From Parazoarcus communis (GTDB taxonomy: Bacteria > Pseudomonadota > Gammaproteobacteria > Burkholderiales > Rhodocyclaceae): DNA of 64,000 nt. Positions 16,502-57,411 of this stretch are shown piece after piece; positions within the stretch are counted from its first letter, which is position 1; each line of letters starts with the position of its first letter. The stretch spans positions 2,790,001 through 2,854,000 of the forward strand of contig NZ_CP022188.1 in the NCBI RefSeq assembly GCF_003111665.1, written 5' to 3'. The position numbers were made by a program, and so were the translations under genes. The notes below the pieces were generated by a model. That model ran no database searches. It saw only the letters and a program-made list of their open reading frames with translations, and had not been told where the DNA came from.

Positions 16502-16542
16502 GCAAGAACGCAACTCGCAGGGACACAACAACAAGGTCGAAC

Positions 16543-16558
16543 GCGCCGCTTGCGGCGC
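16543..16558 (+). other. Stem-loop between nuoL and nuoM
   Basis: GCGCCGC TT GCGGCGC, a perfect 7-bp GC-only hairpin in the 75-base nuoL-nuoM gap, 18 bases before the nuoM start. With no T tract it is more likely a processing or stability element than a terminator. Confidence 0.5.
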
Positions 16559-16576
16559 ACAGAACGGAAAGCAACG

Positions 16577-18058: not shown

Positions 18059-18095
18059 GCGAGCAGGCGAGACACTTAACCGGACTGGTCAGAAG

Positions 18096-39351: not shown

Positions 39352-40344
39352 TCAGCCGAGCCGGAGCGTCGTGTTTCGCAGCGTTTCCGACGGTAGTTCG
39401 CCAAACATCGCCTTGTAGTCCGAGGCGAAGTGGGACAGGTGCCAGAATCCCCATTTTGCAGCCACGTCTGCGACCGAAGTCGACACCGCAGGGGCCGCCT
39501 TGAGCGCTCTGCGCACGCCATTCAGGCGCAGCGCCCGCAGGAAGCTCACCGGGTTGAGGTTGAGTACGTCCTGAAAACTGTACTGCAGGGTGCGGCGCGA
39601 AACCCGGAGTTCGGCGCACAGGTCGGCGATGGTGAAGGGCTCCTCGATGTGCGCCTGCATGTATTCGCGGGTGCGCTCAACAACGAGTTGCCGGGCACGG
39701 CATGACGGGGTGGAGCGATTCTCGAGCGCTGGCTTGATGGTGGATAGCAGGCTCCCGTAGACGGCCTGCTCAAGCGCTTTGCGCATTGCTGCATGCTTGA
39801 GCATCTCGGGCGTGGCGCGCAGGCTCGAAATCACGGTTCCGAGGAAATCCCGCAGCGCAGCGGCCTGCTCGGGTGAAGTCGGCAGAACCCGCTTGCCCTC
39901 GAGTTCGGCTTCGAGGTCGCGATGCTCGACCTGCAACGCGTAGTTGTTCAGTGCCTTGGCATCGGCCGTTACCCCGAGAATCTCCTGCAGTTTCGGCGTA
40001 CGGAAATCCATCTCTTCGCCGCCTTTGAGCGTCACGAACGAATTGATGTCGAGTATTTCTCCGCAGTACCAGCCATTGCCGTCGATCTCCACCGGTACGC
40101 CGAAGGTGCGCGACCCCTTCCAGCTCTGGCCAACTTCATGCACGGACTGGTTGGTCCGCTCGCGGAAGATCTGCAGACTCTCGAAACAGTATTCTTCGAA
40201 ATGCCCTGAAAAAGCGCCTGCAGTGAGCTGGTCGTACTGCTGTTTCCAGTTCCTGAGGCAGGACGCATGATCGTCCGCATCGTGCGTTGTGCGGCGCTGC
40301 GCACTGAAGGCTTCTTCTGCACCCGTGGAGGCGGAGGATGTCAT
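39352..40344 (-). CDS. AraC-family transcriptional regulator
   Basis: 330-aa regulator with a C-terminal double helix-turn-helix (about residues 225-325: FTIADLCAELRVSRRTLQYSF and VADVAAKWGFWHLSHFASDYKAMFGE in part). The N-terminal half (DADDHASCLRNWKQQYDQL, then IFRERTNQSVHE) resembles, from memory, EutR-type amine-related AraC regulators. Its ATG overlaps the stop codon of a small upstream ORF (ATGA), which supports this start over in-frame ATGs further up. It is divergent from aauB and is the best candidate for an aromatic-amine-responsive regulator of the aau cluster. Confidence 0.88.
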   Translation of the reverse strand: MTSSASTGAEEAFSAQRRTTHDADDHASCLRNWKQQYDQLTAGAFSGHFEEYCFESLQIFRERTNQSVHEVGQSWKGSRTFGVPVEIDGNGWYCGEILDINSFVTLKGGEEMDFRTPKLQEILGVTADAKALNNYALQVEHRDLEAELEGKRVLPTSPEQAAALRDFLGTVISSLRATPEMLKHAAMRKALEQAVYGSLLSTIKPALENRSTPSCRARQLVVERTREYMQAHIEEPFTIADLCAELRVSRRTLQYSFQDVLNLNPVSFLRALRLNGVRRALKAAPAVSTSVADVAAKWGFWHLSHFASDYKAMFGELPSETLRNTTLRLG

Positions 40345-40993: not shown

Positions 40994-40996
40994 GTG
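40981..40996 (+). promoter_or_regulatory. Ribosome site that sets the GTG start of aauB
   Basis: AAGGAG at 40981-40986 lies 7 bases before GTG 40994-40996. This decides the start: an in-frame upstream ATG at 40856 lies inside the FNR-type box and has no ribosome site. Confidence 0.8.
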
Positions 40997-42148
40997 GTTC
41001 GATATCGCGCCCTGAAGACCTGCGCGGCCGCATTGCTGATTGCCCTGTCGGGTGCATCCGCAAACGCCGAGCTGGCCGTGGAAATTCCCTCGGTGGAGAA
41101 GCTTGCGCCACCCGATCCCTACCGCATTTACCTGTCCGATATCGCGATCAACCACATCGTCGATGGACGTCTGCATGTGCTCGACGGCAAGAACATGAAG
41201 TACCTCGGCGTGATCGCTGCCGGCTATGCCGGGCAGGCTGTGTTGTCGGCAGACCGCAGCGAGGTCTATGTCGCGACCACCTACTACTCGCGGCTGTCGT
41301 CAGGCGAGCGCACCGATACGGTGGACATCCATGATGCGCAGACGCTGGTGAAGACCGGCGAGATCGTGATTCCGCCCATTCATGCGCAATCCCTGCATTA
41401 CAAGGGCACCATCCGCACCTCCGCCGATGGGCGCTGGCTGTACGTGCTCAATGCCACCCCAGCGATATCGGTGACGGTCATCGATCTGAAAGCGCGCAGC
41501 GTGATGTCGCAGATTGATCTGCCCGGGTGCTGGATCCTGCTGCCTGCCGAGTCGGTTTCCAACCGCTTCTCCACCATTTGCGGCGACGGCACCATGCTCA
41601 CCGTAAGTCTCGACGACAAGGGGCAGGCGGTCGATCAGCAGCGCAGCGCCAAGTTCTTCGATCCCGACATCGATCCCATCTTCATCCACGGTGAGCAGGA
41701 CGGCGATACCTATCGCTTCGTGTCCTACGGCGGCGATATCTACACGGCACACCTTGGCGCTGCGGTCGCCACCTTCGACCCCAAGTGGTCGCTGCTCACG
41801 GCCGCCGAACGCAAGGCGGGCTGGCGCCCTGGCGGCTACCAGTTGCTGGCCCAGCACAACGCCAGCGGGCGCGTATTCGTCGGCATGCATGACGGCGCCA
41901 AGGCAGGCAGCCACAAGTACCCGGCCAAGGAGATCTGGGGCTTCGATCTGAAGACGCAGAAGCGTGTGACGCGGGCGCCGGGCAGCAACGCGATCGCACT
42001 GGCGGTGAGCAAAGGCGACAAGCCCCGGCTCTTTGCCTATGACGGCGTCACCGGCGCAATGGCCGCCTACGATGCCAGCGCAGCGCTGAAGCTGATTGGT
42101 CGCATGGAAGGCGTCGGCGTGACACCGACCATGATGGAGCTGCACTGA
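40994..42148 (+). CDS. aauB: Aromatic amine dehydrogenase large (heavy) chain
   Basis: Beta-propeller subunit of the periplasmic TTQ enzyme that oxidises primary aromatic amines (such as tyramine, phenylethylamine, tryptamine) to aldehydes with release of ammonia. The 384-aa product, started at GTG 40994, has a signal peptide (AAALLIALSGASANA, cleavage near residue 25). Motifs shared with known large chains are GCWILLP, FSTICGDGTMLT, FVSYGGDIYTA and WRPGGYQL. The heavy chain alone does not separate aromatic from methylamine dehydrogenase; the light chain does. It overlaps aauE by one base. Confidence 0.92.
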   Translation: MVRYRALKTCAAALLIALSGASANAELAVEIPSVEKLAPPDPYRIYLSDIAINHIVDGRLHVLDGKNMKYLGVIAAGYAGQAVLSADRSEVYVATTYYSRLSSGERTDTVDIHDAQTLVKTGEIVIPPIHAQSLHYKGTIRTSADGRWLYVLNATPAISVTVIDLKARSVMSQIDLPGCWILLPAESVSNRFSTICGDGTMLTVSLDDKGQAVDQQRSAKFFDPDIDPIFIHGEQDGDTYRFVSYGGDIYTAHLGAAVATFDPKWSLLTAAERKAGWRPGGYQLLAQHNASGRVFVGMHDGAKAGSHKYPAKEIWGFDLKTQKRVTRAPGSNAIALAVSKGDKPRLFAYDGVTGAMAAYDASAALKLIGRMEGVGVTPTMMELH

Positions 42149-42699
42149 TGGACGCCCTTGCCATCGACCCGGTGCTGGCGCGTGCCTGTGGCGCCGCACT
42201 GGCGGTCATCCTGATCGTGGGGGCGTGGCAGAAGCTGCGCGACCTGGTGGTGTTCGAGGCTTCGGTCGAGCTGTACCGGCTGCTGCCCGAATCGCTCGTG
42301 CCGCTGTTTGCCCGTCTGTTTCCGGTGCTTGAAGCGATGGCCGGCGTCGCGCTGCTGTTCGATGCGTCACGTCCGCTGGGCCTTGTACTCGGCGTGCTCG
42401 TGCTCGGCAGCGCAACGGCCGGCGTCGCAATCAATGTTGCCCGCGGTCACACCGAGATCGACTGCGGTTGCGGCGGTGCCGAAGGCCACACGCGCCTGTC
42501 CTGGCTGCTCGTGGCGCGCAATGCGGTGCTTCTGGGCCTGCTTGTGGTCGGCGCACAACTCGGCACCGATCGCGGCCTGGTGTGGATCGACTACCTCTCC
42601 GTTGCCGGCGGCACCCTGATGCTGCTCACCCTTTACGCGGCAGCCAACCAGCTGCTCGCAAACCAACCCCATCTCGCCCAAATGAGGAGCGGATCATGA
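42148..42699 (+). CDS. aauE: MauE/AauE-family membrane protein for amine dehydrogenase maturation
   Basis: 183-aa inner-membrane protein with four predicted helices and a Cys106-x-Cys108 pair in DCGCGG. MauE-type proteins are needed, with MauD, for correct formation of the light chain and its six disulfides in studied organisms. It sits between the heavy-chain gene and aauD, the conserved B-E-D-A order, with one-base and 4-base overlaps to its neighbours. Confidence 0.9.
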   Translation: MDALAIDPVLARACGAALAVILIVGAWQKLRDLVVFEASVELYRLLPESLVPLFARLFPVLEAMAGVALLFDASRPLGLVLGVLVLGSATAGVAINVARGHTEIDCGCGGAEGHTRLSWLLVARNAVLLGLLVVGAQLGTDRGLVWIDYLSVAGGTLMLLTLYAAANQLLANQPHLAQMRSGS

Positions 42700-43298
42700 A
42701 TGAAGCCCTGATGATTTCGAACGTCCTGTTGTGGATTGCGGTGCTTGCCGCACTGGTCGGACTGTTTGCCCTGGCGCGGCAGATTGGTGTGCTCTACGAG
42801 CGTGTTGCACCGATGGGCGCGCTGATGCTCGATACCGGCCCGCAGGTGGGTGAGGCCGCACCGGTGTTCGATCTCCCGCACCTCACCAATAGCCGCGATC
42901 GCATCTCGCTCGGCCTGCCCGGTGACAAGAGCACGCTGCTGTTCTTCCTGTCGCCGACCTGCCCGGTGTGCAAGAAGCTGCTGCCGATCCTGCGCTCGGC
43001 CAATCAGACCGAGCGCAGCTGGATGCGGGTGGTGCTCACCTCGGATGGCGAGCAGCCGGAACACCTCGCCTTCTACGACAAGGCCGGGCTGCAGGACTTC
43101 CCCTATGCGCTCTCGCGCGAGCTCGGCATTGCCTATCGAGTGGCAAAGCTCCCGTATGCGGTGCTGATCAACGAGCAGGGCCGGATCGCCGCCAAGGGGC
43201 TGGTCAACTCCCGCGAGCAGCTCGAAAGCCTTTTCACCGCCAAGGAAATGGGTGTGGCCTCGGTACAGGCCTACCTCGATCAGCCGGGCAAGGCCTGA
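42696..43298 (+). CDS. aauD: MauD/AauD thioredoxin-like disulfide maturation protein
   Basis: 200-aa periplasmic protein anchored by an N-terminal helix (residues about 7-27), with a thioredoxin-like domain and the active-site motif Cys89-Pro-Val-Cys92 in SPTCPVCKK. It is expected to help form the disulfide bonds of the light chain. A GAGGAG ribosome site precedes ATG 42696, which overlaps the aauE stop. The light-chain gene follows after 25 bases. Confidence 0.92.
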   Translation: MNEALMISNVLLWIAVLAALVGLFALARQIGVLYERVAPMGALMLDTGPQVGEAAPVFDLPHLTNSRDRISLGLPGDKSTLLFFLSPTCPVCKKLLPILRSANQTERSWMRVVLTSDGEQPEHLAFYDKAGLQDFPYALSRELGIAYRVAKLPYAVLINEQGRIAAKGLVNSREQLESLFTAKEMGVASVQAYLDQPGKA

Positions 43299-43323
43299 TT
43301 CCGAAGAGACAAGGAGAACGCAA

Positions 43324-43860
43324 ATGAAATGGCTGGATGAATTCTTCGAACGCAAGACGCGCAAGGTTGCGCAAAGCGCCTCACGGCGCAGCGCATTGAT
43401 CGGCATCGGCAAGCTGCTTGTCGGTTCGGCCTTCGTGCTGCCGGTGCTGCCTTTCGATCGCACGGCCCAGGCTGCAGGCGCCACCGCGTCCAAGAAGACG
43501 GCGGGCAAGTTGCCGACCGATCAGGACTGCGAATACTGGCGCTACTGCGCACAGGACGGCTACCTGTGCAACTGTTGCGGCGGCACCGCGTCGAGCTGCC
43601 CGCCGGGTACCGAGGCGTCGAAGGTGTCGTGGATCGGCACCTGTCATAACCCCGAGGACGGCAAGGACTACCTCATCAGCTACAACGATTGCTGCGGCAA
43701 GACCTCCTGCGGGCGTTGCTTCTGCAACACCAACGAACGCGAGATGCCGGGCTACCGCATGGGCCTGCATAACGACATCAACTGGTGCATGGCCAACGAC
43801 TCGACGATGTTCCACTGCACGATGGCCACGGTGGTCGGCCTGGCAGACGTCAAGAGCTGA
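43324..43860 (+). CDS. aauA: Aromatic amine dehydrogenase small (light) chain carrying TTQ
   Basis: 178-aa catalytic subunit. The two tryptophans that form tryptophan tryptophylquinone are present: Trp103 (SWIGTC) and Trp154 (NDINWC), as are the aspartates equivalent to Asp32 and Asp76 of the Paracoccus enzyme (Asp78 in QDGYLC, Asp122 in YNDCCG) and the dense Cys pattern. Stretches such as SWIGTCHNP and DGKDYLISY match Alcaligenes faecalis aromatic amine dehydrogenase as I recall it, not methylamine dehydrogenase. A long leader with twin Arg (SRRSALIGIG) indicates Tat-type export. The protein becomes functional only after TTQ synthesis; a mauG-like gene is not in the window. Confidence 0.95.
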   Translation: MKWLDEFFERKTRKVAQSASRRSALIGIGKLLVGSAFVLPVLPFDRTAQAAGATASKKTAGKLPTDQDCEYWRYCAQDGYLCNCCGGTASSCPPGTEASKVSWIGTCHNPEDGKDYLISYNDCCGKTSCGRCFCNTNEREMPGYRMGLHNDINWCMANDSTMFHCTMATVVGLADVKS

Positions 43861-43868
43861 GGGCGGAC

Positions 43869-44333
43869 ATGAACAGGCTGCTTGCGGCGGGTCGGACAGG
43901 CGTACTGGTTTGGGCCGCACTGCTGGGTGCTTCCCTGACAGCAGGCGCAGCGCACGCGTCCGAAGCGGGTAAGGCGCGCTACCAGTACATCCTGAATTGT
44001 GCGGGTTGCCATCAGGCCGACGGCAGTGGCGCGAAGTCAGGCGGTGTTCCGACCATGCGCGGGCAGATCGGGCACTTTGCCGGCATTCCGGAGGGGCGCG
44101 ACTTTCTGGTGAAGGTGCCCGGCACTTCGAACTCGGCATTAAACAATGCCGATATCGCCCGCATGTTGAACTGGATGCTGCAGGCATTTTCCGCAGAAAC
44201 GCTGCCTGCCGATCTGGCGCCATACACCGAAGCCGAAGTTTCCCGTTTGCGCAGTCAGCCGCTGAGTGACGTCAGCGCCGCCCGGCGCGCCATCGTCAGC
44301 AAGCTGGCAGAGCGTGGGGTTCGCATCGAGTAG
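43869..44333 (+). CDS. Periplasmic monoheme c-type cytochrome
   Basis: 154-aa protein with a signal peptide (cleavage near AHA-S, residue 30) and one heme motif Cys44-x-x-Cys47-His48; Met63 in PTMRGQ is a candidate distal ligand. It starts 8 bases after aauA. By position it is the likely electron acceptor of the amine dehydrogenase or the next carrier. No azurin or amicyanin gene is nearby. Confidence 0.88.
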   Translation: MNRLLAAGRTGVLVWAALLGASLTAGAAHASEAGKARYQYILNCAGCHQADGSGAKSGGVPTMRGQIGHFAGIPEGRDFLVKVPGTSNSALNNADIARMLNWMLQAFSAETLPADLAPYTEAEVSRLRSQPLSDVSAARRAIVSKLAERGVRIE

Positions 44334-44382
44334 GGGCCGGTGCAGATCGATTCTTCTTTCTACCTTGTAAGGACCGAGCAAC

Positions 44383-45762
44383 ATGGACAAAACGACAAGA
44401 AATCCGATGCGCCCTGCAGTTCTGGCGCTGTTGATTGCAGGTTTGCTGGGCAGTGGCCTGAGCCATGCGGCCCCAACCGACGCCGAAGTGGCCAGTCTGG
44501 GAAAGACGCTGACCCCGATTGGTGCCGAGGCGGGCAAGAATGCAGATGGCAGCATTCCCGCCTGGACCGGGGGCATGACGCAGGTTCCGGCGGGCTGGAA
44601 GGCGGGCAGTGTTGATCCGTACAAGGACGACAAGCCGCTGTTTTCAATCGACGCTTCGAACGTGGACAAGCATGCGGACAAGTTGTCGCCCGGCCAGCTC
44701 GCACTGATCAAGGCCTACAAGGGCTACCGCATGGACATCTACCCTAGCCGGCGCAGTTGTCCGGTGCCGGATGTGGTCGCCCAGCAGACAAAGAAGAACG
44801 CGAGCGCGGCGAAACTCGGTGCCGATGGCTGGCAGCTCGAGCAGGTGCTCGGCGGCGGCATCCCGTTTGCCATCCCCAAGACCGGGGCCGAGGCGATGTG
44901 GAACTACAAGCTGCGCTATACCGGAATGGGGCGCAGGGCGCAGATCTCGGCCCTGTTGCCGGACAAGGATGGCGGCTACTCCGAGAACAAGCAGTGGGCC
45001 TTCGAGCTCTATCCGTTCAACGATCCTGCGGTCACCGGGCCGGCCGATGTCGAAGGGGTCGAATCGATGCTGCTGTACGAAGTCCTGTCCCCCGCATCGC
45101 GTGCGGGTGAGGGCTATCTGATTCATGCCTACCTCGACAAGCCGCAAGACGCCTGGATCTACTTCCCCGGTCAGCGTCGCGTGCGCCGCTCGCCAACCTT
45201 TGCTTACGACAACCCGATTGCGGGTTTCGACAACCTGTATTTCGTGGACCAGATCAACGTCTTCACCGGCGCGCTCGACCGCTACGACTACAAGCTCGTC
45301 GGCAAGAAGGAGATGTTCGTTCCGTACAACTCCTACAAGCTGATCGACAAGAAGAACAAGTTCAAGGATATGGTCGGCCCGGACTACGTCAATCGTGACT
45401 TCATGCGCTACGAGCCGCACCGCGTATGGGTGGTCGAGGCCACGGTGAAAGCCGACAAGCGCCACTCCTTCGCCAAGCGCGTGTTCCACTTCGATGAGGA
45501 CTCCTGGGCACTGCTGCAGGTCGACATGTACGACGCCAAGGGCAATCTGTGGCGGGTACAGGAGGGCAGCCTGTGGGCGGCACCCGATGTCGGTGCCTGC
45601 ATCACCTATGAAACCCAGATGTATGACCTCGTCGCCCGACGCTACGTGGTGGACAACTGGACGGCCGAAGGCGAAGTCATCGACCTGACCGCGGCGAAGG
45701 AGGGGCGTATCAACCAGGCCACCTTCAGCCCCGACCAGATGCGTCGCCGCGGCGAGCGCTGA
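44383..45762 (+). CDS. DUF1329 family periplasmic/outer-membrane protein
   Basis: 459-aa protein with a signal peptide (LLIAGLLGSGLSHAA, cleavage near residue 30). The family signature is visible in the segments PNGAEAG-like ITPIGAEAGKNADGSIPAWTGG (in part), WIYFPGQRRVRRSPTFAYD and FVPYNSYKL. DUF1329 proteins are thought to have a LolA/LolB-like lipid-handling fold; their role is not established. They occur next to DUF1302 genes, as here. Confidence 0.88.
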   Translation: MDKTTRNPMRPAVLALLIAGLLGSGLSHAAPTDAEVASLGKTLTPIGAEAGKNADGSIPAWTGGMTQVPAGWKAGSVDPYKDDKPLFSIDASNVDKHADKLSPGQLALIKAYKGYRMDIYPSRRSCPVPDVVAQQTKKNASAAKLGADGWQLEQVLGGGIPFAIPKTGAEAMWNYKLRYTGMGRRAQISALLPDKDGGYSENKQWAFELYPFNDPAVTGPADVEGVESMLLYEVLSPASRAGEGYLIHAYLDKPQDAWIYFPGQRRVRRSPTFAYDNPIAGFDNLYFVDQINVFTGALDRYDYKLVGKKEMFVPYNSYKLIDKKNKFKDMVGPDYVNRDFMRYEPHRVWVVEATVKADKRHSFAKRVFHFDEDSWALLQVDMYDAKGNLWRVQEGSLWAAPDVGACITYETQMYDLVARRYVVDNWTAEGEVIDLTAAKEGRINQATFSPDQMRRRGER

Positions 45763-45789
45763 CCCGACCCCAGACCCAAGGAGACTTCC

Positions 45790-47574
45790 ATGAAGACACA
45801 GACGATTTCACATCGTCGGGCGGCGTTCGCCCTCGCTCCCTCAACCCTTGCGCTCGCGGTGGCCGCGACATTGTGGGCACCAAGCAGTCATGCCTTTCGT
45901 TTCGGCTCGGAGGAAGGCCTGTCGGGCGCTTTTGACAGTACGGTGTCCTTCGGTGTGAGCGCCCGCACTTCGTCTGCCGGCTGCTCCACGCTGGGCAACG
46001 ACAGCGGGGGGTGCAACAACGGCACCAACAACGACCTGTCGAACGTCTACAGCCTGGCCAAGGGTACCGGCTACGCCAATGCAGACTTCAACTTTACCAA
46101 CTTCGATGACGGTAATCTGAACTACAAGAAGGGCGATGTGTTCTCGGCTGCGCTGAAGGGCACGCACGATCTCGCCCTGAAGTACCCCGGCGGCTGGAGC
46201 GCGCTGGCCCGCTTTACCTGGTTCAATGACTTCAAGGCCGACGATACCCGCCGCACCGACGTCGCTGGCGAAGCGTCCGGTGACGTGACCCTGCTCGACG
46301 CCTGGGTGGCGAAGAGCTTTTCCATCGGTGATCAGTACGGCAAGGTCAAGCTCGGCAACCAGGTGATCTCCTGGGGAGAGGACATCTTCATCCTCGGTGG
46401 TGTGAACCAGATCAACGCGATCGACCTGCAGAAGTTCCATGTTCCGGGCACGCAGTTGAAGGAGATCTTCATCCCGGCGCCGATGCTGTCCGGTTCCTTC
46501 GGCATCACCGAGTCGCTGGGCATGGAGGCCTACTACCAGTTCGGCTGGAACAGCTTCAAGTTCGACCCCTCCGGTACCTTCTTCTCTGCGGCCGACGTGC
46601 TGGGCAAGGGGCGGCGCGTCGCCTACCTGCCGACGTCGATCTGTAACGATTTCGGTATTCCGGGGCCCTGTGGCGACAGTTCCGGCCTGACCGACGCGCA
46701 GATGCTCGCCAACGGCACGGCAGTCCCCTATGTCGGCACCGAGAAGCCGCGTGACAGCGGCCAGTACGGGGTGAACTTCCGCTACAACGCGGAAGAGATT
46801 GATACCGAGTTTGCCTTCACCTATCAGCGCTACCACGACAAGCTGCCCTTCCTCGGTTTCACCGGCAATCGCAGTGGCGCGGTGACCGGCTATTACGTCG
46901 CCTACGGCGAGGACAAGGATCTCTACGCGATCTCGGCCAACACCAAGCTGCTGAACGTGGCGGTGGGCGCGGAGCTGTCCTACCGTCCGCGCGACAGCGT
47001 CGGTATCGACCCGACCGTACCCTTCGGCTCGATCTTCGGCGGCAGCTACGACAAGAACAGCGTGTACGACGTGGGCAGCCATCCGGGCTTTGTGGAAGAA
47101 GAGAAGTATCAGTTCCACCTGACCGGCTTCTACACCTTCTCGCACAACGACCCCCTGGGTGGTCTGGCCAAGGCCGTCGGCGCCAGCGATGGCTTCATTC
47201 TCACCGAAGCGGCCGTCACCCATTACCCGGGCCTCGACCGCAGCGGACGCACGCCTTACTTCCTGCCTGACTACTCGCTGCCGGACAAGACGTCGTGGGG
47301 CTACGTGTTCGAGATGGGCCTGAACTACCCCAACGCCTTTGGCAGCGGGGTGACGCTGACGCCGCAGATCGACTGGTATCACGACGTCTCGGGCACCAGC
47401 CCGAACGCGATTCCCTTTGTCGAGGGGCGCAAGGCGCTCACGCTTTCCTTGTTCGCGAACTACCGCGATGCGTGGAAGGGGGCCATCCAGTGGGTGAACT
47501 TCCATGGAGGCGGTGCCAACAACCTGATGCGTGATCGCGACTTCATTTCCGCGAGCATTTCCTACTCGTTCTGA
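45790..47574 (+). CDS. DUF1302 family outer-membrane beta-barrel protein
   Basis: 594-aa protein with a signal peptide (cleavage near SHA-F, residue 36). The mature part alternates polar and aromatic residues and ends in SISYSF, with terminal Phe, a classic outer-membrane barrel ending. Repeated phrases such as YGKVKLGNQVISWGEDIFI and WGYVFEMGLNYPNAFG are family hallmarks. It is likely a porin or secretion-related barrel for hydrophobic or aromatic compounds. AAGGAG lies 7 bases before the ATG. Confidence 0.88.
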   Translation: MKTQTISHRRAAFALAPSTLALAVAATLWAPSSHAFRFGSEEGLSGAFDSTVSFGVSARTSSAGCSTLGNDSGGCNNGTNNDLSNVYSLAKGTGYANADFNFTNFDDGNLNYKKGDVFSAALKGTHDLALKYPGGWSALARFTWFNDFKADDTRRTDVAGEASGDVTLLDAWVAKSFSIGDQYGKVKLGNQVISWGEDIFILGGVNQINAIDLQKFHVPGTQLKEIFIPAPMLSGSFGITESLGMEAYYQFGWNSFKFDPSGTFFSAADVLGKGRRVAYLPTSICNDFGIPGPCGDSSGLTDAQMLANGTAVPYVGTEKPRDSGQYGVNFRYNAEEIDTEFAFTYQRYHDKLPFLGFTGNRSGAVTGYYVAYGEDKDLYAISANTKLLNVAVGAELSYRPRDSVGIDPTVPFGSIFGGSYDKNSVYDVGSHPGFVEEEKYQFHLTGFYTFSHNDPLGGLAKAVGASDGFILTEAAVTHYPGLDRSGRTPYFLPDYSLPDKTSWGYVFEMGLNYPNAFGSGVTLTPQIDWYHDVSGTSPNAIPFVEGRKALTLSLFANYRDAWKGAIQWVNFHGGGANNLMRDRDFISASISYSF

Positions 47575-47583
47575 TGCGCAGTG

Positions 47584-47614
47584 CCGGGGCCGGTTGTATC
47601 CGGTCCGGCCCCGG
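47584..47614 (+). other. Strong stem-loop between DUF1302 and MMPL genes
   Basis: A perfect 10-bp GC-only stem, CCGGGGCCGG / CCGGCCCCGG, with an 11-nt loop, lies in the 58-base gap, 18 bases before the next ATG. It lacks a T tract, so it probably modulates translation or stability rather than ending transcription. Confidence 0.6.
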
Positions 47615-47632
47615 ACCAATGGACTCCCCAAC

Positions 47633-49996
47633 ATGATCGAGAAATCAGTCCTGGCCCTGCAGCGTTTCTGCTTCAGGTTCCGTTTGCCGATCCTGCTTGC
47701 GCTGCTGGTGTTTACCGCGGTGATGGCGACCTTCGCCGCGCGGCTTCACATGAGCGCCGGCTTCGACAAGCAGCTGCCGCAGGACCACGAATACATTCAG
47801 ACCTTCAACCAGTACCGTGAGGTGCTGTTCGGGGCCAACCGCATCATCGTCACGGTCGAGGCGAAGAGCGGCGACATCTGGAACGAGAAGGCGCTGACCA
47901 GACTGTACGACGTTACCCAGGCCCTGTTCTTCATGAAGGGGGTTGATCGGCGTACGGTGAGTTCGCTGTGGACGCCGAACACCCGGGCGGTACAGATCAC
48001 CGAAGAAGGGATGAAGGCCGAAGACGTGATCGGCGGCGATGTCACGGTGAAGGCGCTGACGCCGGAGAACATCTCCGCGATCCGCGAGCGCACCATCATC
48101 GGTGGCTTTGTCGGCAGTCTGGTGGCCAACGATTCGTCATCGGCGATGGTGGTGGCCGAACTGGCCGACCCCGACCCCCAGACCGGCGAACGCCTCGACT
48201 ATTTCGAGTTCAGCCAGCGTCTGGAAAAGGAGTTGCGCACTGCCTTCTCGGATGACGATATCCGTATCCGCATCATCGGATTCGCCAAGCAGATGGGCGA
48301 CATCTCCGAAGGCGCTACCAGCGTGATCGAGTTCTTTGCGCTCGCCTTCCTCCTCACCACCGCCGCCGTCTACTGGTATACGCGCTCGTGGCTGCTCACC
48401 TTTCTGCCCTTGTCGTGCTCACTGGTGTCCGTGGTGTGGCAGTTCGGCACAATCACGCTGCTGGGCTTCGGGCTCGACCCGCTGGCCATTCTCGTGCCCT
48501 TCCTGGTGTTCGCCATTGGTGTGTCTCACGGCATCCAGCAGGTGAACTACATCGCCAAGGAGGTGATCAACGGCGCCGACGGCTATACCGCGGCCAGCCG
48601 CAGTTTCACCGGCTTGCTGGTGCCGGGCACGCTGGCACTGATCACGGCCTTCGTCGGCTTCGCCACCCTGGTGCTGGTGCCGATCCCGATGATCCGCGAG
48701 CTGGCGATCACGGCCTCGGTAGGGGTGGCGTACAAGATCGTCACCAACCTGATCATGCTGCCAGTGCTGGCAAGCTATTTCCGCTTCGACGATGCCTTCG
48801 TGCTGCGTGCGGGCAAGGTCGAACACCTGCGCAACCGCATGATGGCTTCGCTCGGCGTGCATATTGCCAGCCCACGCAATGCCGCCATCGGCACCCTCGT
48901 GTGTGCGCTGCTGATGGGCGTGGCGGTGTGGCAGAGCCAGGGCCGTCACGTTGGGCATGTGCTGCCAGGTGCGCCCGAGCTGCATGACGATTCGCGCTAC
49001 AACCAGGATGTGGAAGCCGTCGTCGATCACTACAGCCTGGGCCTCGATCTGCTGACGGTGGTGGTGGAGACACCGACTGACGGCTGCTACCGCCACGACA
49101 TCATGAGCCATGTGGACCGCCTGACCTGGCAGCTGGCCAATGTGCCCGGCGTGCTCTCGGCGCAGTCGCTGCCGACGCTGGCCAAACTTGCGGCCTCGGG
49201 TGTGAATGAGGGTAACCCGAAGTGGGCGGCGTTGCCGCTGGACGAACTGACGATGGGCGAAGCGGTGCGTCAGGTGCCCGAGGGGCTGCGGCTGTTCAAT
49301 GCCGACTGCACCGTGCTGCCGGTGAATCTCTACCTTTCGGACCACAAGGCATCGACAATCGAAGGCGTGGTCGCCGCCGTAAAGCACTTCCGCGACACCC
49401 AGCCCTTCGACGGCGTCACCGTCAGGCTCGCCAGCGGCAACGCCGGGGTGCAGGCGGCAACCAACGAGATCGTCGAGCATTCCGAGTTGCCGATGATGCT
49501 CTACGTATACGCGACGATCCTGGTGCTGGTGTTCCTGGTGTATCGCGATTGGCGGGCCATGATCGCCTGTTGCGTACCGCTCACCCTGGCCACCTTCCTC
49601 GGCTACTGGTTCATGAAGGAGCTCGACATCGGCCTGACCGTGGCGACCTTACCGGTGATGGTGCTGGCGGTGGGGATCGGCGTCGATTACGCCTTCTACA
49701 TCTATAACCGGCTGCAGATGCACATGGCCCATGGCGAGGACATCGTCACCGCCTTCAAGCAGGCCTTGCGCGAGATCGGCGTCGCCACCGTATTCACCGC
49801 TGTGACGCTGTCGATCGGGGTCGCCACCTGGTCCTTCTCCGCGCTCAAGTTCCAGGCCGACATGGGCATGCTGCTGACCTTCATGTTCATGATGAACATG
49901 ATCATGGCCATCACGCTGCTGCCAGCGCTCGCGGTCACGATCGACATGCTGATTCCGCGCCGGGGGCCGGTGCGCGCCCCGCTGATGGCGCATTGA
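47633..49996 (+). CDS. MMPL/RND-superfamily transporter
   Basis: 787-aa inner-membrane protein with the duplicated layout of RND/MMPL transporters: one helix near residue 15-35, a periplasmic domain of about 200 residues, five helices (about 240-430), then a repeat of this pattern in the second half. The segment VGIGVDYAFYIYNRLQ carries an Asp in the helix used for proton coupling in this family. No adaptor protein is encoded next to it, as usual for MMPL-type proteins. The substrate is unknown; neighbours point to aromatic or hydrophobic compounds. Confidence 0.88.
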   Translation: MIEKSVLALQRFCFRFRLPILLALLVFTAVMATFAARLHMSAGFDKQLPQDHEYIQTFNQYREVLFGANRIIVTVEAKSGDIWNEKALTRLYDVTQALFFMKGVDRRTVSSLWTPNTRAVQITEEGMKAEDVIGGDVTVKALTPENISAIRERTIIGGFVGSLVANDSSSAMVVAELADPDPQTGERLDYFEFSQRLEKELRTAFSDDDIRIRIIGFAKQMGDISEGATSVIEFFALAFLLTTAAVYWYTRSWLLTFLPLSCSLVSVVWQFGTITLLGFGLDPLAILVPFLVFAIGVSHGIQQVNYIAKEVINGADGYTAASRSFTGLLVPGTLALITAFVGFATLVLVPIPMIRELAITASVGVAYKIVTNLIMLPVLASYFRFDDAFVLRAGKVEHLRNRMMASLGVHIASPRNAAIGTLVCALLMGVAVWQSQGRHVGHVLPGAPELHDDSRYNQDVEAVVDHYSLGLDLLTVVVETPTDGCYRHDIMSHVDRLTWQLANVPGVLSAQSLPTLAKLAASGVNEGNPKWAALPLDELTMGEAVRQVPEGLRLFNADCTVLPVNLYLSDHKASTIEGVVAAVKHFRDTQPFDGVTVRLASGNAGVQAATNEIVEHSELPMMLYVYATILVLVFLVYRDWRAMIACCVPLTLATFLGYWFMKELDIGLTVATLPVMVLAVGIGVDYAFYIYNRLQMHMAHGEDIVTAFKQALREIGVATVFTAVTLSIGVATWSFSALKFQADMGMLLTFMFMMNMIMAITLLPALAVTIDMLIPRRGPVRAPLMAH

Positions 49997-50007
49997 GGAG
50001 ATTCACG

Positions 50008-50964
50008 ATGAAGAAGTGTTTTCCATTGATGCGTCTGATCTGCGCGCTGCTGGTGATCGCGGCGCCCGGCGCAGGCGTGCAGGCCGCAGATCCAGCCCCG
50101 GTGCCGGCCATGAAGGCCCGGCTGGCAGCAAAGGTCGCGCTGACCGGCCTGGTACGGGCCGGCGATGCGCTGGTGGCAACCGGTGCGTATGGCACCGTGG
50201 TGCGTTCCACCGACAATGGCCAGACCTGGCAGCAGGCCGAGGTGCCGGTGAGCACGCTGCTCACTGCGCTGCATTTCGTCGATGCCGAGCGCGGCTGGGC
50301 GGTGGGGCATGGCGGCGTGGTGCTGGCCACCACCGATGGCGGCGTCAAGTGGACCCTGCAACAGCAGCTTGCAGACAAGCCGGTGCTGTTGTCGGTGCAT
50401 TTCGTCTCTGCGGAAAAGGGCTTTGCCGTCGGGGCCTACGGCAGCGCATGGCGCACAGTCGATGGCGGTCGCAACTGGTCGCCGATGGTGGTCGGCAGCG
50501 GTCGCGATACCGACATGCACCTCAACCATATCTTTGCCACCAGGAACGGCGTGCTCTTTGCGACGGCCGAGTTCGGGCTCGCGTTTCGCTCTGCCGACGG
50601 TGGCGACTCCTGGCATCCGCTCACGACCGGCGTCTCGGGTTCGCTGTGGAACGGGCTGGAAGGTGCGAACGGAGAAATCGTGCTGCTCGGCATGAGTGGC
50701 AGGGTGCTGGTCAGCGCCAATGGGGGCGACAGCTTTCAGGTGTTCGAGCACGACAGCGGGCAGTCGCTGAGTGCTGCGGTCGTCGATGCCAATGGCGGCC
50801 TGATCGTGGTCGGTTCAGGTGGGCTGGTGCTGCGCGGGCGCGAGCGTTTCGCGACCGAAATTCGTGCCGATCGCCAGAACCTCGCTGCGGTGGCGCTCGC
50901 GGCGGACGGTGGCCTGATTGTGGCCGGACAACTCGGTGTAGAGCGCGTTGGCGGCGGGAACTGA
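50008..50964 (+). CDS. YCF48-like beta-propeller protein, exported
   Basis: 318-aa protein with a signal peptide (cleavage near VQA-A, residue 26) and at least five propeller repeats, each with a (T/A)-x-GG-x-x-W-like element: STDNGQTW, TTDGGVKW, TVDGGRNW, SADGGDSW, SANGGDSF. YCF48 proteins in phototrophs help assemble photosystem II; in this non-phototroph the role must differ. Its place beside the MMPL transporter suggests a periplasmic partner. Confidence 0.85.
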   Translation: MKKCFPLMRLICALLVIAAPGAGVQAADPAPVPAMKARLAAKVALTGLVRAGDALVATGAYGTVVRSTDNGQTWQQAEVPVSTLLTALHFVDAERGWAVGHGGVVLATTDGGVKWTLQQQLADKPVLLSVHFVSAEKGFAVGAYGSAWRTVDGGRNWSPMVVGSGRDTDMHLNHIFATRNGVLFATAEFGLAFRSADGGDSWHPLTTGVSGSLWNGLEGANGEIVLLGMSGRVLVSANGGDSFQVFEHDSGQSLSAAVVDANGGLIVVGSGGLVLRGRERFATEIRADRQNLAAVALAADGGLIVAGQLGVERVGGGN

Positions 50965-50979
50965 CAAGGAGAGGTGCAG

Positions 50980-51462
50980 ATGTTGAACCGATTAATTGCC
51001 CTGCTGCGTGGGGATCTCGAAGCAGAGGCGACCGAGGCCGGCCCCTTCGAGCGGCGTCACATCGCCGTTGCGGCGCTGCTGCTCGAAGCCATGTACGTCG
51101 ACCACAAGGCAAGCGCAGACGAGCATGCCGCCGTTACCCGCCTGCTGCGGGACCACTTCCACCTGCGTGGCGCTACGGCGGAGCAACTGGTCAGGGTCGC
51201 CGACGAGCGTTTCGCCGAGGTGCTCGACGACTGGGAGTTTGGCGAGGCCGTGCGGACGGGTTTCAATCCGGCCGAACGCCAGGAAATTCTGACCCTGCTG
51301 TGGGAGGTCGCGTATGCCGATGGCGTGCTTGCGGGGATGGAGCGCCGCCTGCTGAACCGACTGGCACGTCAGCTCGATCTCGGCCTGCCGGCCATCGAGC
51401 AGGCGCGTGCGACTGCTGCGGCGCGTGGTGGCCTGATTCGCACAGGGCCCGAGGACGACTGA
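50980..51462 (+). CDS. TerB-like domain protein, second copy
   Basis: 160-aa soluble helical protein: VAALLLEAMYVDHKASADEH and LLWEVAYADGVLAGMERRLL are TerB-like. It shares this architecture with the protein at 32286-32753 but is clearly diverged. AAGGAG lies 8 bases before ATG 50980. It is inserted between the YCF48-like and aldehyde dehydrogenase genes on the same strand, and its role in the operon is unknown. Confidence 0.8.
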   Translation: MLNRLIALLRGDLEAEATEAGPFERRHIAVAALLLEAMYVDHKASADEHAAVTRLLRDHFHLRGATAEQLVRVADERFAEVLDDWEFGEAVRTGFNPAERQEILTLLWEVAYADGVLAGMERRLLNRLARQLDLGLPAIEQARATAAARGGLIRTGPEDD

Positions 51463-51515
51463 GTTATATCCGTTTAACCGCAACATCATCAAAAACAACA
51501 CCAGGAGACATGTGA

Positions 51516-53018
51516 ATGGAACGATATCAAGGGCAGTTCATCAGTGAGGCTACCCGCCAGTTTCTGGCGCGACCGAAGCGCATGCTGATTGGCGCCGAAT
51601 GGCTCGATGCCCAGAGTGGTGAGACGCTCGAGGTGATTGACCCGGCCAGCGGCCAGCCCTTTACGGCGGTGCCGGCCGGTGCGGCAGCGGATATCGACCG
51701 CGCGGTGGCGGCTGCCCGTCAGGCCTTCGAGTCTGGCGAGTGGTCGAAGATGCGTCCGGTCGACCGTGAGCGCCTGCTGCTGAAATTTGCCGATCTGGTC
51801 GAGGCCAACGCGCAGGAGCTCGCCGAAATCGAGGCGCTCGACAACGGCAAGCCGGTGGTGATGGCGCGCCACGTGGATGTGGCCCTTGCAGTCGACTTCC
51901 TGCGCTACATGGCAGGCTGGGCGACCAAGATCGAAGGCTCGACCATGGATCTCTCGGTGCCGCTGATGCGCGAGCGTGAGCTGTTCGGCTTTACCCGGCG
52001 CGAGGCTGTCGGCGTGGTCGGTGCGATCATTCCGTGGAATTTCCCCCTGCTGATGGCTGCATGGAAGGTGGCCCCGGCGCTGACCTGCGGCTGCACCATG
52101 GTGCTCAAGCCGGCCGAGGAAACGCCGCTGACCGCGCTGCGTTTTGCGGAACTGGCGCTCGAAGCGGGCTATCCCCCCGGTGTGCTCAACGTGGTGACTG
52201 GTCATGGCCATACCGCCGGTGCGGCGCTGGCCGGACACAAGGGCATCGAGAAGGTCGCCTTTACCGGATCGACCGAGATTGGAAAACTGGTCGGCAAGGC
52301 GGCGCTGGACAACATGACCCGGGTTTCGCTTGAGCTTGGTGGCAAGAGCCCGGTGATCGTGCTCGATGACGCCGATCCGGCGAAAGCGGCCGCAGGTGCC
52401 GCGCAGGCCATCTTCTTCAACCAGGGCCAGGTGTGTACAGCGGGTTCGCGCCTGTTCATCCACAAGAGCCGTTTTGACGAGGTGGTCGAAGGGCTGTCGG
52501 GCATCGCGTCGGCCATGAAGCTCGGGCCGGGTATCGATCCCTCGACCCAGGTCGGGCCGCTGGTCTCGGCCATTCAGCAGCAGCGCGTGCTCGGCTACAT
52601 CCAGAGCGGATACGACGAGGGCGCACGGGCGGCCGTCGGCGGCGCAGCCGGTGGCGGCGAGGGCTACTTCGTCAAACCCACGGTGCTGGTCGATACGCGC
52701 GACGACATGAAGGTGGTGCGCGAGGAGATCTTCGGCCCGGTGGTGGTGGCGATGCCGTATGACGACCTGGACGAAGTCGCGCGTCGCGCCAACGATACGC
52801 CTTACGGCCTTGCCGCCAGCATCTGGTCCAACGACCTGTCACGCGTTCATCGCCTGATCCCCAGAATCAAGGCGGGCACGGTCTGGGTGAACTGTCACAA
52901 CATCCTGGACAACGCGATGCCCTTCGGCGGTTACAAGCAGTCCGGCATCGGGCGCGAGATGGGGCGTGCCGTGCTCGACATGTACACCGAATCCAAGTCG
53001 GTGATCATGGCGCTCTGA
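51516..53018 (+). CDS. Aldehyde dehydrogenase, probable phenylacetaldehyde dehydrogenase
   Basis: 500-aa NAD(P)-dependent cytoplasmic enzyme. Catalytic Cys307 is in GQVCTAG, Glu273 in SLELGGKSP and Asn175 in IPWNFP. The length and stretches such as GSTMDLSVPL resemble E. coli FeaB (phenylacetaldehyde dehydrogenase). In this operon it should oxidise the arylacetaldehydes released by the amine dehydrogenase to arylacetates. A 53-base gap separates it from the TerB gene; a terminator follows. Confidence 0.92.
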   Translation: MERYQGQFISEATRQFLARPKRMLIGAEWLDAQSGETLEVIDPASGQPFTAVPAGAAADIDRAVAAARQAFESGEWSKMRPVDRERLLLKFADLVEANAQELAEIEALDNGKPVVMARHVDVALAVDFLRYMAGWATKIEGSTMDLSVPLMRERELFGFTRREAVGVVGAIIPWNFPLLMAAWKVAPALTCGCTMVLKPAEETPLTALRFAELALEAGYPPGVLNVVTGHGHTAGAALAGHKGIEKVAFTGSTEIGKLVGKAALDNMTRVSLELGGKSPVIVLDDADPAKAAAGAAQAIFFNQGQVCTAGSRLFIHKSRFDEVVEGLSGIASAMKLGPGIDPSTQVGPLVSAIQQQRVLGYIQSGYDEGARAAVGGAAGGGEGYFVKPTVLVDTRDDMKVVREEIFGPVVVAMPYDDLDEVARRANDTPYGLAASIWSNDLSRVHRLIPRIKAGTVWVNCHNILDNAMPFGGYKQSGIGREMGRAVLDMYTESKSVIMAL

Positions 53019-53035
53019 GCAAACAGGTCATGGTG

Positions 53036-53085
53036 TTGCAGCCGGCTGTCGACGCGCAGTTTTCGATGGCCGGCTGCAATTTTTT
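53036..53085 (+). terminator. Rho-independent terminator after the aldehyde dehydrogenase gene
   Basis: 11-bp perfect stem TTGCAGCCGGC / GCCGGCTGCAA with a 22-nt loop and TTTTTT directly after. It closes the + strand unit that begins with aauB and separates it from the convergent lrp gene. Confidence 0.85.
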
Positions 53086-53098
53086 CCTGGTGCTGTTT

Positions 53099-53596
53099 TC
53101 AGGTGGCTTTTGCCTTCGGCGCATTGCCGAGGTGATCAAGCGGCAGTCTCGTGCTGCGCTTGAGTTCGGTCAGCGCGATATTCGATTTGACGCTGCGCAC
53201 CCCGCCGATCCGCATCAGGCGGTGCAGCATGAAATCCGACAGTGCGGGCAGGCTCGGGGTCATGACCCGCAGCAGGTAGTCTGCCTCGCCACTGATGGCG
53301 AAGCATTCGAGCACTTCTTCCATGTCGCGAATTGCGTCGGTGAAGGCATCGGTGTGGACCTCGCCATGACGTTCCAGCGAAACATTGACGAACGCGGTCA
53401 CTCCGAGACCGATGGCGGCCGGGCGCAGTAGCGCGACGTAGCGCTCGATGAATCCGGACTGCTCCAGTCGTTGCACCCGACGACTGACCTGTGAGGGTGA
53501 CAGATGGATGCGTTCGGCGAGCACCGCATTGGACGCCTGGCCGTCGGTTTGCAGTTCGGACAGCAGTTGCAGGTCGTATTTGTCGAGATCGATCAT
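53099..53596 (-). CDS. Lrp/AsnC-family transcriptional regulator
   Basis: 165-aa regulator: an N-terminal helix-turn-helix (residues about 5-55: LDKYDLQLLSELQTDG, then SPSQVSRRVQRLEQSGFI) and a RAM/AsnC ligand domain (FVNVSLERH, GEADYLLRV, GVRSVKSNIALTELK). Such proteins often bind amino acids; the divergent oxidoreductase acts on 2-oxoacids made from aromatic amino acids. Four GTGCA-type half-sites lie in the shared promoter region, so it likely controls itself and the oxidoreductase gene. Confidence 0.93.
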   Translation of the reverse strand: MIDLDKYDLQLLSELQTDGQASNAVLAERIHLSPSQVSRRVQRLEQSGFIERYVALLRPAAIGLGVTAFVNVSLERHGEVHTDAFTDAIRDMEEVLECFAISGEADYLLRVMTPSLPALSDFMLHRLMRIGGVRSVKSNIALTELKRSTRLPLDHLGNAPKAKAT

Positions 53597-53600
53597 GGTT

Positions 53601-53668
53601 CGTGCATCTTGTTTGGATTTGATGCACGAAATCTTCGTCGATCCCGTGTTTTGGTGCAAACAATGCAC
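53601..53668. promoter_or_regulatory. Candidate Lrp/AsnC operators between lrp and the oxidoreductase gene
   Basis: Two palindromes built on the same half-site: CGTGCATC (53601-53608) with GATGCACG (53621-53628), spaced by 12 bases, and GTGCA (53654-53658) with TGCAC (53664-53668), spaced by 5. The first begins 4 bases upstream of the lrp ATG, a position suited to autorepression. Confidence 0.6.
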
Positions 53669-53808
53669 GCACCGTGGGCGCGCATGGGCCTACGATAACC
53701 CTGTTGCTCGTATCGCCGGGAGCCAAATCCGGCAATACGAATCAAAGCTGATAAAAGCAGGCCGGTGCGCTGTGGGCAGTGTGCCGGACCACAACAGGAG
53801 ACACGCCC

Positions 53809-56800: not shown

Positions 56801-57411
56801 TCGTGGGCGAGCTTGGCGTCCTGCGCTTGAGCCCGGTGGTGGCGCGTGTCCATGCCCGCTTGCTGGCGATAAAGGATGAGTACGAAGTTGCGCGGCTGTT
56901 TACCGACGGGCAGTTCGATGCAGCGCTGAACGAGCAGTTCGAGGATGAATTCAGTCTGCAGTTTCACATGGCGCCGCCGCTGCTGTCGCGTCCCGGCCCC
57001 AGCGGGCGTCCGCGCAAGCTCACCTTCGGGCCGCGTCTGATGCCGCTCCTCCGGTTGCTGGCACGGGCCAAGGTCGTGCGTGGCACGATGTTCGATATCT
57101 TCGGGCGCAGCGAGGAGCGTCGCATGGAACGCGAACTGGCTGCGGACTACGCCCGGACCATCCGGGCGCTGCTGCCGCGCCTCACGAGCGCGAACATTTC
57201 ACAGGCAGTCGAGCTGGCAGGTCTGGCCGACGGTATCAGAGGCTTTGGCCCGGTGAAGCTTGCGAACCTGCGCCGCATCAAGCAGCAGGAGCGCACGCTC
57301 GTGCATGCGCTGGGTCTCGATTTCGTGGCCGGTCCGACGGTTCTGCACCTGTGCGAGCCGGTCCGCGGGCGTGCTGCACTGCAAGAGATTTCGGTCGTAA
57401 AGGCACCTTGA
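53809..57411 (+). CDS. ior: Indolepyruvate:ferredoxin oxidoreductase, fused alpha-beta-type
   Basis: A 1200-aa fusion that decarboxylates aromatic 2-oxoacids (indolepyruvate, phenylpyruvate) to arylacetyl-CoA and reduces ferredoxin. The N-terminal part holds the transketolase-like and thiamine diphosphate regions (SGYRGSPLGAYDQQLW, IGDDHGC, QMGGEGVDWVAHSGF). A ferredoxin-like Cys cluster follows at about residues 648-690 (CEGCGDCGKQSNC, then CNKDYSCVEGFCP). The C-terminal third is the IorB-like domain starting at LLVTGVGGTGVVTVG. Single-chain Ior is normal in many proteobacteria. AGGAG precedes the ATG. It is divergent from the lrp gene. Confidence 0.93.
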   Translation: MNTLTVAATTSVTMVNRDYRLADNLEAVRGQVFLTGTQALVRLPLMQAALDHAAGLNTGGFISGYRGSPLGAYDQQLWKVKPLLDANRIRFLPAVNEELGATAVLGSQQVERDAERTVDGVFAIWYGKGPGVDRAGDALRHGNAYGASPHGGVLAVIGDDHGCVSSSMPHQSDFTLQAWSLPVLNPASVAEMIEFGLYGWALSRFSGCWVGLKAISEMVESGSTVDLDAIRARFEAPADYTPPEGGLHYRWPDLPSLVIEQRLAAKLDAARHFARHNSIDRLLCPATSADVGIVTCGKAHLDLLEALRRLGLGMDDLEANGIRLYKVGQSFPLEPGRMRAFATGLKEILVVEEKGPFVEQQIKNLFYNDDPARRPQVFGKTAQCGAPLLSALGELRPSRVMPVLADWLARHRPVLDRREHVEDFTAPTLLSNVADGVRRVPYFCSGCPHNTSTRVPEGSHAQAGIGCHFMASWMPDRETTGLIQMGGEGVDWVAHSGFTRTPHVFQNLGDGTYFHSGFLAIRQAIAARTNVTYKILYNDAVAMTGGQPVDGTVTVDAIARQVEAEGARRVVVVSDEPEKFKGHEGQFPRGTSFHHRSELDTVQRELREVKGVSVLIYDQTCAAEKRRRRKKKAYPDPDRRLFINAAVCEGCGDCGKQSNCLSIVPLDTPLGRKRMIDQSSCNKDYSCVEGFCPSFVSVIGGKVRKAVGASFDEDRLQARVAALALPAKHEWSGPYDLLVTGVGGTGVVTVGALVTMAAHLEGKSASVLDFMGFAQKGGQVLSFVRMATDSGALNQVRIDTQQADAVIACDLVVGASNDALQTIKHGRTRVVANLHEIQTAKFVLDPEADLHVEALLEKIRYAAGAAQLSTCDAQALSVRMLGDTIGANILLLGFAWQQGLVPVSLEALARAIELNGVAVATNLTAFSLGRLAAGDPQGLAALAGTTPDSAVQPDEGQGESLAALVDARVAMLTAYQSAAYASQYRALVDEVERAERKLVGELGVLRLSPVVARVHARLLAIKDEYEVARLFTDGQFDAALNEQFEDEFSLQFHMAPPLLSRPGPSGRPRKLTFGPRLMPLLRLLARAKVVRGTMFDIFGRSEERRMERELAADYARTIRALLPRLTSANISQAVELAGLADGIRGFGPVKLANLRRIKQQERTLVHALGLDFVAGPTVLHLCEPVRGRAALQEISVVKAP

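Follow-up and report, generated by a model that had tools for sequence, protein, structure and literature searches.

Why should the genes of a periplasmic aromatic amine dehydrogenase (AADH) run on, closely spaced and on one strand, into those of an envelope transporter? The question is raised by eleven plus-strand genes at positions 40994-53018 of a 64,000-nucleotide stretch (the window, to which coordinates without a contig or locus label refer) of Parazoarcus communis contig NZ_CP022188.1 (positions 2,790,001 to 2,854,000). The host is a soil-type betaproteobacterium whose genome is a single 4.89-Mb contig. The run consists of aauB, aauE, aauD, aauA and a cytochrome c gene, followed by genes for DUF1329, DUF1302, MMPL and YCF48 proteins (hereafter the block), a TerB-domain protein and an aldehyde dehydrogenase (ALDH). 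All eleven, as listed in a preliminary description made from the sequence alone, were found intact on the plus strand, with intergenic distances of -4 to 58 nucleotides when the start of aauD is taken as the ATG at 42696. That description had proposed that amine oxidation is coupled to dedicated transport. The comparisons below sustain this as an evolutionary coupling, in which co-oriented blocks of different sublineages are linked to aau, and speak against a universal pairing. On the comparative evidence, the coupling is more than coincidence and is lineage restricted, and it looks selected. To our knowledge, little is established about how bacteria handle reactive aldehydes made in the periplasm; the recurrent joining of this enzyme to a transporter suggests that handling of the amine or of the toxic aldehyde belongs to the pathway.

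When 83 MMPL proteins were placed in a tree (rows below 600 bits or without nearby DUF1302 or DUF1329 genes were excluded), the aau-linked rows fell in one 63-row clade with the window (SH-aLRT 99), the sole exception being the second block of locus L051. There, two blocks lie around one aau cluster, one on the opposite strand (892 to ~7500), belonging to the other MMPL clade, and one downstream (14715 to end), belonging to the aau-linked clade. Of the 63 clade rows, 56 have aauA at the same locus, a proportion that is not a frequency because the aau-linked rows were mostly found via aauA. A more careful tree with nine plasmid rows, from which plasmid locus L184 (block split over two strands) was excluded, recovered the clade (51 rows) with support of 100/100. 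Nearly all clade rows have the order DUF1329-DUF1302-MMPL-YCF48, the exceptions being L169 and cut or oddly called loci such as L150, and 17 of 20 rows outside the clade have the order DUF1302-DUF1329-YCF48-MMPL, the plain order of the published AmeABCD transporter discussed below.

Within the clade, linkage to aau changes at least seven times on the careful MMPL tree. On the AauA tree the change count is also 7 (63 rows with the block and 30 without; another 24 of the 117 rows, two references among them, were of indeterminable state and were left out, and the window is not a row), and such counts are blind to gain versus loss. The hypothesis that the 36 aau-linked MMPL rows form a single clade was rejected on the careful tree by an approximately unbiased (AU) test (p-AU 3.9e-5). 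At locus L026, AauA groups with the Burkholderiaceae/TerB lineage, that is, with the window's half of the clade; the block directly downstream comes from the other sublineage, and its placement with the window's half was rejected (p-AU 8e-7). The groups for both AU tests were named after inspection of the tree. Judged from these placements, L026 is a case of a block swapped in place at the same spot. Distances in AauA are correlated with those in MMPL (n = 36, r = 0.73, 0 of 9999 permutations); since they are and yet the L026 block was swapped, the coupling has been kept over long spans, with the transporter also being replaced by one of the same kind. The arrangements vary: the block is upstream in L020 and L022, after the ALDH gene in L031, L044 and L045, and kilobases downstream in L028, L059, L060 and L069. 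The possibility that the block merely hitch-hiked, having been joined to aau once in the distant past and kept by descent, is rejected on account of the AU test, the L026 swap and the differing arrangements. In L028, from a Dechloromonas metagenome-assembled genome, a gene for a methyl-accepting chemotaxis protein (12534-14216) separates the aau genes from the block and may link chemotaxis to amine use.

To sample near relatives, genome contigs were searched for aauA, the 80 best of the 197 loci that matched were kept, and the window genes were mapped on each; 54 of these 80 loci are well flanked (at least 9 kb on either side of aauA). DUF1329, DUF1302 and MMPL occur together at 45 of the 54, a count biased toward near relatives because only the best 80 of the 197 loci were kept, and the full set is missing at nine (L029, L033, L043, L056, L057, L066, L067, L072 and L080). 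YCF48 is present at 42 of the 54 loci, ALDH at 37 and TerB at 22. The preliminary description had extended the block accompanying aauA from DUF1302 to TerB; its DUF1329, DUF1302 and MMPL genes do accompany aauA, whereas TerB is a lineage-specific extra that is not core to the block. At all 58 near-relative loci whose DUF1329 call exceeds 200 bits (59 have any DUF1329 call), the nearest DUF1329 gene lies on the aauA strand; strand alone was used, distances from stop-to-stop open reading frames being wrong at some loci (e.g., L034, L039, L041, L053 and L075).

Of 300 genomes sampled from the order, 15 carry AADH-clade loci, 16 in all; the sample also yielded 7 loci of the methylamine dehydrogenase (MADH) clade and 2 weak matches. 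The block adjoins 4 of the 16 AADH loci (the window, L131, L133 and L136) and none of the 7 MADH-clade loci, or none of 9 when the order and class samples are combined; these counts refer to the stretches fetched, some of which in the order sample stop at contig edges (e.g., L121, L122 and L126). The 11 remaining AADH genomes have no full-length DUF1302 gene, and the four AADH genomes that own one all carry one beside aau. The order sample holds 36 full-length DUF1302 loci (at least 300 bits) in 32 genomes, and 32 of these loci are not beside aauA, which, by the criterion set in the preliminary description, speaks against universal pairing; the pairing is found within one clade, with 4 of 11 window-clade blocks beside aauA versus 0 of 25 other DUF1302 loci (p 0.006). 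Given the DUF1302 positions, 0.034 blocks would be expected within 10 kb of aauA and 4 were observed; co-occurrence of AADH and full-length DUF1302 at the level of whole genomes is weak (4/15 versus 28/285, p 0.06). Quinohaemoprotein amine dehydrogenase, considered as a second amine enzyme of the periplasm, occurs in 2 of the 300 genomes, neither with full-length DUF1302 within 10 kb, too few to tell. In a class-wide sample of 369 genomes, a light-chain match was found in 13 (including G312, a partial match taken without flanks) and an adjoining block in 2 (the window and G213); in G091, AADH and a 62% identical MMPL protein are encoded on different contigs. Among 30 plasmid records with a light chain of the tryptophan tryptophylquinone (TTQ) type (E 1e-20), only that of Cupriavidus pinatubonensis has, by position, an MMPL match less than 10 kb away (E 1e-60), a count that again speaks against universal pairing.

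Seven window-clade blocks of the order sample lie away from aau (L150, L157, L159, L160, L161, L164 and L169; the L150 stretch ends at a contig edge, and the surroundings of L161 are ambiguous). At L160 the neighbours include a flavin-monooxygenase-like protein and an alcohol dehydrogenase of the pyrroloquinoline quinone (PQQ) type, and at L164 an APC permease and two Old Yellow Enzyme (OYE)-type fusions with a DmmA-like protein. Elsewhere they include EutBC, APC permeases and a regulator like that encoded by aauR, the gene divergent from aauB (L169), an aauR-like regulator and ALDH (L157), and ALDH (L159). Ten plasmid regions were also fetched, five of them unannotated, and their genes were labelled by our own profiles; the tenth, L184, was set aside. 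The block adjoins ALDH and an APC permease on the Azoarcus KH32C plasmid, an aauR-like regulator and ALDH in Variovorax, and phytanoyl-CoA dioxygenase and an alcohol dehydrogenase in Pseudomonas aeruginosa, and none of the query-set genes was found near the Burkholderia arboris and Paraburkholderia blocks. The C. pinatubonensis plasmid block adjoins AADH, with aauB about 5 kb past YCF48. On the side of that block away from AADH (L179, strain HN-2, 3148-7067) lie genes for an arylsulfatase, a formylglycine-generating enzyme and a FAD-dependent oxidoreductase. Amine or aldehyde chemistry near window-clade blocks is frequent and not universal.

The enzyme encoded in the window is, by its sequence, an aromatic amine dehydrogenase. 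The heavy chain (aauB, 40994..42148; PF06433, 157 bits) matches that of AADH (2h3x_A) at 267 bits versus 134 bits for the best MADH, and the light chain (aauA, 43324..43860; PF02975, 181 bits) scores 190.6 bits against AADH and 160.5 bits against the best MADH; a close relative, L002, sits in the AADH part of the AauA tree. When AauA is aligned to the solved light chain of Alcaligenes faecalis AADH (2agl_D), Trp103, Trp154 and Asp122 share columns with their counterparts, in agreement with the earlier statement that the TTQ tryptophans and the key aspartate are present; we take the two tryptophans to be those that form TTQ and Asp122 to be the catalytic, active-site residue. Between the two chains are encoded a MauE-like membrane protein (aauE, 42148..42699; PF07291, 92 bits) and a MauD-like thioredoxin-fold protein (aauD, 42696..43298; TIGR02661, 204 bits, above cut-off). 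The small monohaem cytochrome c encoded next (43869..44333; PF00034, 27 bits; CAGCH motif) is the likely electron acceptor of AADH. mauG was not found beside the aau genes (40994-43860), and the only two CCP/MauG-family matches of the genome, at C1:266891 and C1:3916407, are about a megabase or more away. The ALDH at the end of the run (51516..53018; PF00171, 592 bits) is of the phenylacetaldehyde (StyD) type, with StyD its closest match (NF045735, 751 bits, below the curated cut-off of 850), and the genome contains one phenylacetate-CoA ligase (PaaK) above cut-off. Because both are encoded, a route from phenylethylamine to phenylacetyl-CoA is plausible in the host. Among genome contigs, the AauA most like that of the window belongs to Azoarcus sp. 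L1K30 (96% identity), followed at 93% by those of an Azoarcus metagenome-assembled genome and Parazoarcus communis.

The block begins with the DUF1329 protein (44383..45762, 455 bits), an AmeB-like protein whose structural model has a LolA fold, consistent with a periplasmic shuttle. The AmeA-like DUF1302 protein (45790..47574, 476 bits) is modelled as an outer-membrane beta-barrel resembling OprD and AlgE (RND below stands for resistance-nodulation-division), with Foldseek matches that include a BenF-like porin and OpdK with vanillate; in a second look at the Foldseek hits, the matches shown did not include the periplasm-spanning, TolC-like ducts of tripartite RND pumps, an absence that proves nothing by itself, and the best were OprD/Occ/AlgE-type barrels. 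They are followed by an AmeD-like, MMPL/HAE3-like inner-membrane transporter of the resistance-nodulation-division type (47633..49996; PF03176, 89 bits) and an AmeC-like YCF48/BNR protein (50008..50964; PF14870, 62 bits) placed in the periplasm, with an N-terminus that by eye resembles a signal peptide. No signal or transmembrane segment was seen in the TerB-domain protein (50974..51462; PF05099, 96 bits). A second, very divergent set of DUF1329, DUF1302, MMPL and YCF48 genes is present elsewhere in the host genome (C1:3594196-3599464, L113), with an MMPL protein 27% identical to that of the window and an aauR-like AraC gene nearby.

The AraC-family regulator gene aauR (39352..40344, minus strand; HTH_18, 80 bits; start codon read from the sequence) is EutR/AndR/FeaR-like, with EutR as its best NCBIfam match (208 bits, below the cut-off of 319). 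It is transcribed divergently from aauB, and a homologue is likewise divergent upstream of aau at many related loci. At the other end, the strong terminator given in the preliminary description was recovered as an intrinsic terminator on the plus strand (53035..53085) between the convergent ALDH and AsnC-type genes; it has an 18-pair stem (~53035-53080), a T6 run (53080-53085) and a fold of -42.4 kcal/mol over an 80-nucleotide stretch (z = -5.9 versus shuffles). It was missed by the pattern scan because that scan permits only loops of 3-8 nucleotides. The promoter and terminator scans, which perform at chance level, found no sites of either kind in the gaps within the aauB-ALDH run; a sigma-70 scan gave 2 promoter-like sites against 3.2 expected, and a sigma-54 promoter was rejected, the window matching at chance (36 versus 40 expected). 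A single transcript from aauB to the terminator is something we only infer, as site-scan counts are no better than chance. Beyond the terminator (53099-57411), the AsnC-type regulator gene is divergent from that of a 1210-amino-acid fused protein resembling indolepyruvate-ferredoxin oxidoreductase (POR, DUF6537), which may offer a further route to arylacetate beside the aau operon. Genes for complex I (nuo) lie at 6305-19562 of the window.

What, then, might the block do for amine oxidation? Gene content, co-orientation, repeated changes of coupling and predicted folds, all obtained by computation, lead us to a reading for which we see nearly even chances: that the genes form an operon for aromatic-amine catabolism equipped with a Lol-like envelope unit, which would clear the reactive aldehyde (or surplus amine) outward. 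In the periplasm, AADH would oxidise an aryl-ethylamine (of the phenylethylamine, tyramine or tryptamine class), with cytochrome c receiving the electrons, the StyD-like ALDH would complete aldehyde oxidation in the cytoplasm, and PaaK would handle phenylacetate. In the envelope unit, a hydrophobic ligand present in the inner membrane or the periplasm would be picked up by the HAE3-like RND protein and carried by DUF1329 with its LolA fold, and the DUF1302 barrel would be its passage through the outer membrane, with YCF48 as a putative assembly or coupling factor. Outward clearance would keep periplasmic aldehyde production from outrunning the cytoplasmic ALDH. We infer the ligand class, amine or aldehyde, because the coupling recurs; the direction of transport and the roles of YCF48 and TerB are likewise proposals, and efflux is favoured over uptake only modestly. 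Outward clearance is supported by the occurrence of some non-aau window-clade blocks beside genes that concern amines or form aldehydes (EutBC, PQQ alcohol dehydrogenase, OYE-type fusions and ALDH) and by the phenotype of ameABCD loss, in which monoterpene tolerance is lowered and Nile Red accumulation is raised, according to the portions of the report available (PMC6394551). A broader version, in which this clade would be specialised as a proton-driven Lol-like shuttle that takes small reactive aldehydes, derived from amines or from other metabolism, over the Gram-negative envelope, recruited several times to aldehyde-releasing enzymes (AADH, ethanolamine ammonia-lyase and PQQ alcohol dehydrogenase), is doubtful.

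Several observations weigh against outward clearance of an aldehyde. The best NCBIfam match of the MMPL protein, TIGR00921 (HAE3), reaches 167 bits against a cut-off of 352, and the DUF1302 model is slightly closer to OprD/Occ porins, which serve mostly uptake, than to the exporter AlgE. Since 12 of the 16 AADH loci of the order sample are without the block, AADH can function in its absence; as the sampled loci closest to the characterised A. faecalis AADH (L128 and L135) also have none, the block is dispensable for AADH in general. On two Cupriavidus plasmids and one of Caballeronia, it stands in lipid-like gene sets that contain phytanoyl-CoA dioxygenase, AMP-ligase or acyl-CoA dehydrogenase, and the ligand therefore need not be an aldehyde; ALDH is near 4 of 15 non-aau window-clade blocks versus 2 of 25 other blocks, an excess short of significance (p 0.17). 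Pseudomonas putida homologues (DUF1302/DUF1329, periplasmic-protein and efflux-type transporter genes) are needed for growth on Tween 20, which, from what is available of that paper, reads as uptake (PMC10866462).

This last phenotype, the likeness of the barrel model to OprD/Occ substrate channels such as the BenF-like porin and OpdK with vanillate, and the APC amino-acid permeases near some window-clade blocks would all suit an import system, its barrel and shuttle conveying an amine or precursor that is bulky or hydrophobic through the outer membrane and the periplasm as far as AADH and the inner membrane. We consider such uptake rather unlikely, given that small aryl amines should pass general porins, that RND proteins of known function are mostly exporters and that the ameABCD phenotype is a tolerance defect. 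It is improbable that the block guards the envelope against aromatics broadly and stands in the operon only for co-regulation. The same four genes do occur in the AphS/AphR/AphT phenol regulons, where a solvent-stress role was proposed in the sections available (PMC6449761), and most order-sample blocks adjoin genes other than aau; the aau-linked blocks nevertheless belong to one family clade and track AauA, and none of the 9 MADH loci has a block, so the tie would be to the substrate class of the enzyme. The distance of the CCP/MauG-family genes from aau could suggest that the block assists in assembling AADH, its TTQ or its cytochrome, or in electron transfer. We give this very little credence, and a role as AADH maturation factor is rejected in view of the AADH loci without a block, the A. 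faecalis lineage included, and by related blocks at terpene, phenol and ethanolamine loci that have no TTQ. The DUF1302 and DUF1329 families carry no functional name in Pfam, and coupling to aau offers them a testable ligand class; an operon rebuilt more than once ties a chemically defined enzyme to a transporter, so that the direction of transport becomes answerable.

The preliminary description had called the run the likeliest undescribed system of the window, a claim that fails for the block, whose family appears in three published studies (PMC6394551, PMC10866462 and PMC6449761), described here from the parts available. AmeABCD of Castellaniella defragrans, encoded in a catabolic island, comprises a DUF1302 outer-membrane protein, a DUF1329 periplasmic protein, a COG4447 (YCF48-type) protein and a HAE3 RND transporter (PMC6394551). 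All four components are likewise encoded together in the window, within a catabolic run; the order differs (DUF1302-DUF1329-COG4447-RND versus DUF1329-DUF1302-RND-YCF48), and the compounds concerned in AmeABCD are monoterpenes, not amines. Blocks with the AmeABCD order fall outside the window's MMPL clade (AmeD itself is not in the tree). In P. putida, PP_0765/PP_0766 and PP_2018/PP_2019 were proposed to form a transport system (PMC10866462); they correspond to the DUF1302, DUF1329, periplasmic and efflux-type components and act jointly by mutant phenotype, but by locus tag they form two separate pairs, the phenotype concerns growth on Tween 20, and the proposed role is substrate transport. 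DUF1302-PF07044-COG1033-COG4447 operons in the AphS/AphR/AphT phenol regulons of Betaproteobacteria, including Azoarcus, place the same block in aromatic catabolism, with a proposed role in coping with toxic aromatics (PMC6449761); these operons are of the phenol type, a word count of the text available found no mention of amine dehydrogenase, and the window has an AraC regulator instead. In the sections available, the phenol hydroxylase cluster of Zoogloea oleivorans includes DUF1302 and DUF1329 genes (PMC7012976), and a co-regulated efflux cluster, of a family that may differ from that of the window's block, accompanies the p-ethylphenol genes of Aromatoleum aromaticum EbN1 (PMC4630880). The A. 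faecalis AADH (2agl, 2h3x) shares both chains and the TTQ residues with the window enzyme, and its nearest loci in our sample are without the block. A literature search over open-licence papers, with most subscription papers outside it, found no tie between the block family and an amine dehydrogenase. The block family is already published; its lineage-restricted coupling to aromatic amine oxidation is new.

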